Source: Yoonia sp. BS5-3 (GTDB lineage: Bacteria; Pseudomonadota; Alphaproteobacteria; Rhodobacterales; Rhodobacteraceae). From it: a stretch of 64,000 nucleotides of DNA. The notes below the pieces were generated by a model that was given only the letters and a program-made list of their open reading frames with translations, made no database searches and had not been told where the DNA came from. The number at the start of each line of letters is the position of its first letter. Positions within the stretch are counted from its first letter, which is position 1. Positions 20,520-40,511 of the stretch are shown here, piece after piece. The DNA lies in the NCBI RefSeq assembly GCF_038069655.2, contig NZ_CP150951.2, forward strand, positions 2,692,001 through 2,756,000, written 5' to 3'. The position numbers and the translations under genes were made by a program.

Positions 20520-20604
20520 GCGGGTGTGGCGGAATTGGTAGACGCACCAGATTTAGGTTCTGGCGCCGCAAGGCGTGGGGGTTCAAGTCCCTTCACCCGC
20601 ACCA
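20520..20604 (+). tRNA. tRNA-Leu (anticodon UAG)
   Basis: The 85-base sequence folds as a class II tRNA. The acceptor stem is GCGGGTG / CACCCGC, followed by A and an encoded CCA. The anticodon stem CCAGA / TCTGG holds the loop TTTAGGT (anticodon UAG, reading CUA), the long variable arm (GCGCC / GGCGT region) is as expected for Leu, and the T-arm is GGTTCAAGTCC. A TGCTAGAAG-like -10 element lies upstream at about 20466. Confidence 0.96.
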
Positions 20605-38534: not shown

Positions 38535-38561
38535 CCCCCGCCACGATCAAAGGACCGATTG

Positions 38562-39743
38562 ATGACGACAACTGAGAGCTCCTCTCGGGCCGGGGAAGAT
38601 GTGTCTCCTGCCCAGGCTTTGAACACGGCGATCGCCGGTTTCATGAGCGATTTCAAAGACTTTTCCCAAGGCGTGACTGCCAAACTTCAAAAACAGGATG
38701 ACCGGATGAATAAGCTGGACCGAAAGACCATGATCTCTGCCCGCCCCGCATTGGCGGCGGCTGCTTCAGAAGATGCGCCCCATCAAAAGGCTTTTGCTGC
38801 CTATTTGCGCTCGGGCGATGATGACGCGCTGCGCGGCCTCGAGATGGAGGGCAAAGCCCTTGGCACAGCCGTTGCTGCCGATGGTGGCTATCTGGTTGAC
38901 CCGCAGACGGCGGACGCTATTCAGGGCACGTTGTCTTCGACTGCATCTATTCGTTCGATTGCCAATGTCGTGAATGTTGATGCGACATCATACGACGTTC
39001 TGGTCGATCATTCTGAGCTGGGTGCTGGATGGGCGACTGAAAGCGCTGCTGTCGTCGAGACAGACACCCCGCAGATTGAGCGAATCTCAATTCCGCTGCA
39101 TGAATTGTCGGCTTTGCCGAAAGCATCCCAACGTCTTCTTGATGACAGTGCATTTGATATTGAAGGCTGGCTGGCCAACCGGATTGCTGACAAATTTGCC
39201 CGTTCTGAAGCGAATGCATTCGTGTCTGGTGATGGCGCAGACAAGCCAACCGGCATTCTGACCTACCCGACAGTTGATAATGACAGCTGGGCCTGGGGTA
39301 GCTTGGGCTATGTTGCATCTGGTGCTGCTGGCAGCATCACCCGTGCCGACGCGATCGTTGATCTGGTTTATGCGCTTGGCGCCGAATATCGCGCGAACGG
39401 CACATTCGTCATGAACTCAAAAACTGCGGGCACCGTCCGTAAGCTGAAGGACAATGACGGTCGCTTTGTTTGGGTTGACGGTCTGGCTGTGGGCGAGCCC
39501 GCCCGCCTGATGGGCTACCGCGTTTTGATCGCTGAAGATATGCCGGACATCGATGATGATGCCATGGCCATCGCGTTTGGTGACTTTTCTGCCGGGTACA
39601 CCGTTGCAGAACGTCCTGACCTGCGCGTCCTGCGCGACCCATTCTCAGCCAAGCCGCATGTTCTGTTTTATGCAACCAAGCGTGTTGGCGGTGCTGTGAG
39701 CGATTTTGCGGCGATCAAATTGCTGAAATTCGCGGTCAGCTGA
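38562..39743 (+). CDS. GTA major capsid protein, HK97 family (orfg5)
   Basis: The 393-residue product has an N-terminal scaffolding-like helical region (about residues 1-85, removed by the protease in relatives). The HK97 fold then begins around GTAVAADGGYLVDPQT, with the GWATESAAVVETDTP E-loop region, SEANAFVSGDGADKPTGIL and the C-terminal GDFSAGYTVAERPDLRVLRDPF and KPHVLFYATKRVGGAV. A TTG one codon upstream is in frame; I use the ATG. A 168-bp non-coding gap with large inverted repeats follows. Confidence 0.96.
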   Translation: MTTTESSSRAGEDVSPAQALNTAIAGFMSDFKDFSQGVTAKLQKQDDRMNKLDRKTMISARPALAAAASEDAPHQKAFAAYLRSGDDDALRGLEMEGKALGTAVAADGGYLVDPQTADAIQGTLSSTASIRSIANVVNVDATSYDVLVDHSELGAGWATESAAVVETDTPQIERISIPLHELSALPKASQRLLDDSAFDIEGWLANRIADKFARSEANAFVSGDGADKPTGILTYPTVDNDSWAWGSLGYVASGAAGSITRADAIVDLVYALGAEYRANGTFVMNSKTAGTVRKLKDNDGRFVWVDGLAVGEPARLMGYRVLIAEDMPDIDDDAMAIAFGDFSAGYTVAERPDLRVLRDPFSAKPHVLFYATKRVGGAVSDFAAIKLLKFAVS

Positions 39744-39758
39744 GGCTGACACGCGAGA

Positions 39759-39885
39759 GATGCGCCCCATTCATTTGGGCGCATCTGCCCCGGACGCATG
39801 TCAGGCAATCCCCGCATTGTCTAGCTGCTCCCTTCCGTCCGAGCAATGCGGGGGGTGTGCATGCGTCCGGGCTCAACTGCCCGGA
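39759..39885 (+). promoter_or_regulatory. Nested inverted repeats between GTA capsid and connector genes
   Basis: Four helices are possible. Hairpin A pairs GATGCGCCC (39759-39767) with GGGCGCATC (39777-39785). Outer helix B pairs CCCGGACGCATG (39789-39800) with CATGCGTCCGGG (39860-39871). Inner helix C pairs CCCCGCATTG (39810-39819) with CAATGCGGGG (39844-39853). Hairpin D pairs TCCGGGC (39866-39872) with GCCCGGA (39879-39885). All are perfect. B and D share bases and cannot form together, as in an attenuator or switch. Confidence 0.7.
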
Positions 39886-39911
39886 TGATCAGTGAATTTC
39901 GGAGTCGTTCC

Positions 39912-40511
39912 ATGATGTTAATCGAAGAGACCACAGTGCCGAGTGCTGCACTTCCGGTCGCACAAATGAAAGACCATATGCGCCTTGGTTCGGGTTTCTC
40001 CGACGATGGATTGCAAGATCCTGTGCTGGAAACATATCTTCGCGCCGCCCTCGCGGCGATCGAAGCCCGCACCGGCAAAATACTGGTCGAACGCGAATTT
40101 AGCTGGACATTGACTGCCTGGCGGGATTGCCGGCGTCAGCCGTTGCCCGTTGCCCCGGTGAATGCTGTAACCAGCGTCACGCTGATCGCCATGAATGGCG
40201 AAGAGACAATCGCCGATGATGCAGCATGGTCTTTGCAGCCTGACAACCAGCGCCCCTGTCTGCGCGCAACTGGCGCCAGTCTGCCGGCCTGTCCGGCTGG
40301 CGGTTCAATCCGGATCGGCTTTCTTGCGGGTTTTGGGCCGGATTGGGGCGATTTACCTGCCGATCTGGCCCAGGCCGTCATGATGTTGGCCGCCTATTAT
40401 TACGAATACCGGCACGACACTGCACAAGCGCGCGGCTTGTTACCTTTTGGCGTTTCGTCCTTGATTGAGCGCTACCGGACCGTGCGCATGTTCATGGGAG
40501 GCCAGAGATGA
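39912..40511 (+). CDS. GTA head-tail connector (orfg6, gp6-like)
   Basis: The 199-residue product (MMLIEETTVPSAALPVAQMKDHMRLG...) has the gp6-type adaptor pattern: an N-terminal LAxxKxHLRLxxxxxD region, LRAALAAIEARTGKILVEREFSWTL and a GGSIRIGFLAGFG strand. It ends in the helix DLAQAVMMLAAYYYEYRH. The start follows the structured 168-bp gap and has a GGAG site nine bases upstream; ATG 39915 is equivalent. It overlaps orfg7 by 4 bases. Confidence 0.9.
   Translation: MMLIEETTVPSAALPVAQMKDHMRLGSGFSDDGLQDPVLETYLRAALAAIEARTGKILVEREFSWTLTAWRDCRRQPLPVAPVNAVTSVTLIAMNGEETIADDAAWSLQPDNQRPCLRATGASLPACPAGGSIRIGFLAGFGPDWGDLPADLAQAVMMLAAYYYEYRHDTAQARGLLPFGVSSLIERYRTVRMFMGGQR

Follow-up and report, generated by a model that had tools for sequence, protein, structure and literature searches.

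The cluster for a gene transfer agent (GTA), a virus-like particle that bacteria have domesticated, in Yoonia sp. BS5-3 raises the question of how proteins needed in very unequal amounts are made from one transcript, and what the gap behind the capsid gene may contribute to this. A particle requires 145 copies of the capsid protein, which outnumber the other structural proteins combined, and co-transcription of the GTA cluster from one promoter is reported (PMC9765227); the GTA adaptor is a dodecamer (PMC7296036). In the window, that is, the whole 64-kb stretch of DNA analyzed here, the GTA major capsid gene (g5) of the HK97 fold family (Pfam PF05065, E 2e-87; TIGR01554, E 6e-107) lies at 38559..39743 on the + strand and is followed on the same strand by the GTA adaptor or head-tail connector gene g6 (39912..40511; TIGR02215, E 6e-54). 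The intercistronic gap of 168 nt between them (39744..39911, +) is the sole long gap from g5 to the end of the tail genes in this cluster, the genes 3' of it being overlapping or almost touching.

The capsid-adaptor gap encodes a structured RNA

The first-pass annotation had claimed a large RNA structure between the capsid and connector genes, and four helices, all of them perfect, were indeed found in the BS5-3 gap. Hairpin I (39758..39786, +), located 14 nt past the capsid stop codon, carries a 10-bp stem (39758-39767/39777-39786), counted as 9 bp in that annotation, and a 9-nt loop. Hairpin II (39789..39871, +) consists of two nested helices, an outer one of 12 bp (39789-39800/39860-39871, +) and an inner one of 10 bp (39810-39819/39844-39853, +), the fourth helix being a short hairpin that overlaps the outer one. 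Folding of the gap (39744-39911) yielded -77.8 kcal/mol, whereas 200 shuffles averaged -62.2 (z -3.4) and 1 of them was as good. The gap sequence occurs once in its own 4-Mb genome. Downstream of the hairpins, the Shine-Dalgarno (SD) sequence of g6, CGGAG, is found at 39900..39904 (+), and [C/T]GGAG is kept in relatives. An ATG at 39846, inside hairpin II, is in frame with g6 and opens an ORF of 221 aa (39846-40511, +), which automatic annotation could pick as the g6 start, although the SD and start that are conserved lie at 39900-39912.

Comparison with relatives demonstrated that the fold is conserved. In a 30-sequence alignment of the genus, 97.0% of the cells were paired, compared with 33-48% in slid versions of the same alignment. 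Among 96 family sequences, 239 cells had changed on both sides as against 77.5 in shuffles, and parsimony on a tree of the capsid C-terminus counted about 172 two-sided, pair-keeping changes, whereas sliding the partners by 1-3 columns left 17-28. The first-pass annotation had pointed to relatives as the place to look for covariation, and compensatory changes proved to be many there, exceeding both column-shuffled and slid controls. Given that G-U and U-G cells (247) far exceeded A-C and C-A cells (37), it is the sense RNA that folds; a DNA cruciform or an antisense RNA is disfavored by the wobble pairs on the sense strand. Hairpin I is not conserved in sequence, but among 81 diverse relatives 90% had a stem of 7 bp or more, compared with 33% in shuffles. 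Between the capsid stop codon and hairpin I, a GYGA motif was mildly enriched (129 of 257 relatives, 55 shuffled). Together, the data show that the gap encodes a structured, single-copy RNA made of hairpin I and the nested hairpin II, whose apical loop is nearly invariant.

The element is specific to GTA clusters of Rhodobacterales

The capsid gene was found in 42 of 56 genomes of the genus. Apart from one degenerate case, the readable genus gaps (one gap lies at a contig end) followed a common plan: the capsid stop codon, a spacer of about 14 nt, hairpin I, then hairpin II with its nested helices, a tail, the SD and g6. Gaps of relatives were mostly 150-180 nt long. A covariance model of hairpin II, searched in 396 family genomes, matched in 192 of them, representing 176 of 352 genera and always with exactly one copy per genome. 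A second model built from 96 family sequences matched in 73 of 121 order genomes, again with one copy each, while its application to 241 sampled genomes of the class returned, outside the own genus, five chance-level matches only (E 0.004-0.09). The element is therefore absent from the sampled other alphaproteobacterial orders and specific to GTAs of Rhodobacterales.

To place the element, we scanned genome contigs and viral contigs for the exact loop (pattern GTCTAGCNNNTCCYYTCCGNCCGAG); the counts that follow refer to the matches listed, in which the named organisms were roseobacters and their relatives. At all 302 of the 302 listed loci with both flanks placed, the loop was on the sense strand and in the gap that separates capsid from adaptor. 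The remaining 25 listed loci comprised 16 variant loops, which the model placed in the capsid-adaptor gap, and 9 loci cut at the end of a contig or stretch. A dispersed repeat or mobile palindrome of the REP/BIME type was rejected given the one copy in the BS5-3 genome and in every matching genome. As to a phage origin of the element, there was no phage capsid of more than 60% identity for comparison. More than 100 IMG/VR "viral" contigs (L258-L337 and further ones) carry the element between capsid and adaptor; these contigs are GTA clusters of Rhodobacterales catalogued as viruses. The element provides a simple DNA signature for GTAs of the Rhodobacterales type, one that can help catalogues of genomes and viruses to tell GTAs from prophages.

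The apical loop is nearly invariant

The apical segment of hairpin II (GUCUAGCUGCUCCCUUCCGUCCGAGC; 39819..39844, +) stood out as nearly invariant both in column conservation among 96 relatives and in pattern scans. The consensus of the loop is GUCUAGCUGCUCCC[C/U]UCCG[U/A]CCGAGC; in the alignment, columns 39-66 (GUCUAGCUG..CUCCC[C/U]UCCG[U/A]CCGAGC) held about 1.3-2.0 bits each, with one C/U column at 1.15, while the helix columns beside the loop varied freely in the 96 relatives. This conservation exceeds what is needed to cap a helix, and a loop that is nearly invariant across the order implies a specific partner. In its right half, the loop is similar to an anti-Shine-Dalgarno sequence. The invariant GUCUAGC half is unexplained by an anti-SD function, which suggests a contact with a protein or a tertiary contact. 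A search for a target in trans within GTA clusters returned recurring complements in coding DNA near -1950 to -2020 that look like protein conservation, and in a search of the BS5-3 genome every further site had 3 or more mismatches.

These properties would fit an RNA that is bound by a protein. An RNA-binding protein of the GTA or the host would recognize the loop, e.g. in a feedback by a structural protein, and would switch how far g6 and the tail genes are expressed. Columns 39-66 are under much stronger constraint than the helices, GUCUAGC has no detectable base-pairing role, and the single copy per genome is confined to GTA clusters, yet no candidate protein was found, and a host-wide regulator would be expected to have a second genomic copy; we regard this explanation as unlikely. 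In a broader form, which we consider possible if doubtful, the element would be a dedicated GTA regulatory RNA, the loop serving as a receptor for a GTA or host protein or for RNA polymerase, and would time or gate the synthesis of adaptor and tail after capsid build-up. If true, GTA assembly would for the first time be seen to have a checkpoint at the RNA level, one that was domesticated and has been maintained across Rhodobacterales.

Hairpins persist where the loop has been lost

To characterize the limits of the family, we inspected 22 non-matching family genomes. Half of them (11) had no close capsid homologue. Among the other 11, three (L408, L409, L413) carried recognizable loop variants, two (L411, L414) combined a longer gap (390-480 nt, with an added small ORF of about 100 aa) with an element that was degenerate or missing, and six kept at least one GC-rich hairpin while the recognizable loop was gone. 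The more divergent copies displayed the same gradation. In the loop-less L378 and L379, GTA-like capsid clusters on the Paracoccus megaplasmids pFER4 and pTAV4, the capsid-adaptor gap harbors a nested hairpin of its own followed by TTTT; more generally, loop-less relatives (L378/L379 and the degenerate G059 and G075) carry a single or nested GC hairpin and then TTTT or TTCTT. It is possible that these represent a terminator-like ancestor of the element or a substitute for it.

The persistence of hairpins bears on whether processing and mRNA stability could account for the element by themselves. RNases would cut in the double hairpin or close to it, 3'-to-5' degradation of the capsid mRNA would be halted by the hairpins, the tail part would decay faster, and the loop would serve a nuclease or a chaperone. 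Such a role is in keeping with two stable hairpins right after the capsid stop codon, with hairpin I being conserved in structure alone, with the demand for 145 copies of capsid and with the precedent of puf (Chen et al. 1988, in PMC9690577) in R. capsulatus, a member of the same order. A generic block to decay, however, would not require that a loop of about 26 nt stay invariant across about 176 genera. Moreover, because lineages without the loop retain GC-rich hairpins, the loop must have a further role. We therefore consider processing and stability on their own a rather unlikely account.

Attenuation and termination

The first-pass annotation had also proposed that mutually exclusive helices in the gap point to attenuation. 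The competing helix is real in BS5-3: a third hairpin of 7 bp (39866-39872/39879-39885; 39866..39885, +) overlaps the 3' arm of the outer helix. It is not conserved. When the outer 3' arm was paired with the next 25 nt in family members, the best helix averaged 4.75 bp compared with 5.0 bp in shuffles, and this part of the proposal was not supported. A two-state attenuator or riboswitch, which needs both competing helices to be conserved, was rejected accordingly. No U-tract follows the hairpins in the BS5-3 gap and none is conserved in the 96 relatives; T is slightly enriched directly after hairpin II (2.4 vs 1.4 per 9 nt). An intrinsic (rho-independent) terminator was rejected, the GC-rich hairpin having no T-rich tail here or in the 96 relatives.

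A weaker form, in which a partial terminator or attenuator resembling T-phi of T7 halts some of the polymerases after the capsid gene, would agree with strong hairpins directly 3' of that gene, with the GC hairpin and TTTT or TTCTT of the loop-less relatives and with the slight enrichment of T. Nevertheless, the U-tract is neither present in BS5-3 nor conserved, the competing antiterminator hairpin is not conserved, and termination would leave the loop unconserved, all of which makes partial termination very unlikely.

Equally improbable, in our judgment, is the converse, a cis-acting RNA for processive antitermination of the put/EAR kind that would equip RNA polymerase for the ~9 kb of tail genes, possibly together with GafA. 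Two adjacent hairpins with conserved unpaired bases, in mid-operon and on the sense strand, resemble such RNAs; transcription of the Caulobacter GTA uses antitermination by GafZ and passes terminators inside the cluster (PMC11150451), and GafA of RcGTA contacts RNA polymerase (PMC9638019). Yet GafZ loads at the promoter and not at an internal RNA, the sampled GTAs outside Rhodobacterales have no such element, and no Rfam family, EAR included, was matched. The Rfam search, with the Rfam 15 covariance models at gathering score, covered the gap and 20 relatives, and its best sub-threshold hit was a chance miRNA (E 0.3). In the 64-kb window, the only above-threshold Rfam match was a tRNA gene (20520-20601, +). 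The first-pass annotation knew of no description of such an element in GTAs, and we likewise found none in the open-access literature. Cis-acting mRNA structures between cistrons are known as a kind; new, as far as tested, are this family, its restriction to GTAs and its invariant loop.

The loop and the g6 ribosome-binding site

The anti-SD resemblance of the loop directed attention to the ribosome-binding site of g6. In BS5-3, UUCCG in the loop of hairpin II (39833..39837, +) complements CGGAG of g6 with one G-U pair and is the putative pairing partner that we infer. Among relatives, the base preceding GGAG of g6 was C in 180, T in 62, A in 2 and G in 2 cases (C or T in 242 of 246, kinship ignored), C and T being the bases able to pair with the invariant G of the loop UCCG, and this supports the pairing. 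Purines are common before the SD of other genes in the same clusters, with A at the portal gene in 86 of 97 and at g8 in 135 of 139, and A also predominates at the protease gene. The base after UCCG of the loop co-varied in part with the next base of the SD: A coincided with T in 23 of 28 cases and U with G in 87 of 217 (kinship ignored).

Other observations count against the pairing. A Y-biased SD is also present at the GTA genes g7, g10 and g13, where the bias may result from coding overlap, and GGAG is likewise preceded by C where the loop is degenerate (L410, L412, L449, L450). In silico, the best duplex between loop and tail covered the SD in only 103 of 244 cases and was barely better than that of shuffled loops, the duplex energy thus not being specific for the SD, and a pseudoknot check of tail length against helix length revealed no correlation. 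The loop is too invariant to show covariation proper with the SD.

In favor of the pairing, an extra hairpin in the tail, with GGA(G) in its loop, was present in 65 of 245 tails compared with 15 in shuffles (kinship ignored), and 39 of the 245 tails carried CGGAGGGG, the exact complement of CCCCUCCG of the loop. Against it, tail hairpins with a GGAG loop are mostly from one clade. Such a third hairpin between hairpin II and the SD, e.g. GGCCC(GGAG)GGGYC, was seen in L066, L094, L154, L181 and others, mainly Ruegeria and relatives. It is possible that the GGAG-loop hairpin of the tail is a kissing partner of the hairpin II loop or a decoy SD.

A cis-acting element that may lower adaptor expression

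The element is positioned at the point at which expression must drop, the boundary of capsid and adaptor. Judged from sequence comparison, the reading that we tentatively prefer is that it acts in cis on the mRNA to keep g6 and the later genes below the capsid, probably by masking of the SD combined with protection of the 3' end of the capsid mRNA. The anti-SD-like [C/U]UCCG of the loop would pair with [C/U]GGAG of g6 and decrease g6 translation, and this effect would be carried downstream; because the following genes mostly overlap stop-to-start, lower initiation at g6 would lower the whole series. In addition, the two stable hairpins would shield the 3' end of the processed capsid mRNA, as the intercistronic hairpin of puf does. 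Masking of the SD is the leading mechanism, inferred and unproven. Located at this boundary, the element is a candidate post-initiation determinant of the ratio of capsid to adaptor (145 vs 12, and fewer tail parts), one that is concrete and can be deleted.

Comparison with known systems

In the puf operon of R. capsulatus, an intercistronic stem-loop that sets unequal expression is used as an "mRNA decay terminator" (PMC9690577, citing Chen et al. 1988). Both this stem-loop and the GTA element are GC-rich hairpins located between a gene needed in excess and later genes of one operon, in the same order. Unlike puf, the GTA element has two hairpins, the second of them nested; the likeness is one of arrangement, and no relation in sequence is claimed. 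To our knowledge, the puf stem-loop is not known for a long invariant apical loop. AbcR-type RNAs of Alphaproteobacteria, which carry anti-Shine-Dalgarno loops, are trans-acting sRNAs. They share with the GTA element a C/U-rich loop complementary to GGAG, but the GTA element is located inside an operon, beside the SD it could mask, and the searches for a target in trans found none. put of HK022 and EAR of Bacillus, cis-acting antitermination RNAs, are likewise two-hairpin RNAs within an operon with conserved unpaired bases; the GTA element has no similarity to them in Rfam, and the likeness is in architecture alone. In T7, the T-phi terminator follows gene 10 and partly stops polymerases after the capsid gene. 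In the Caulobacter GTA, the internal terminator terGTA, three 150-bp direct repeats behind the first gene, is passed by means of antitermination (PMC11150451). T-phi and terGTA resemble the element described here in lying after or within a series of virion genes from which one transcript gives unequal amounts of protein. The element differs from both in having no conserved U-tract and from terGTA in its place and number, terGTA being repeated and located after the first gene, whereas the element is single and located after the capsid gene.
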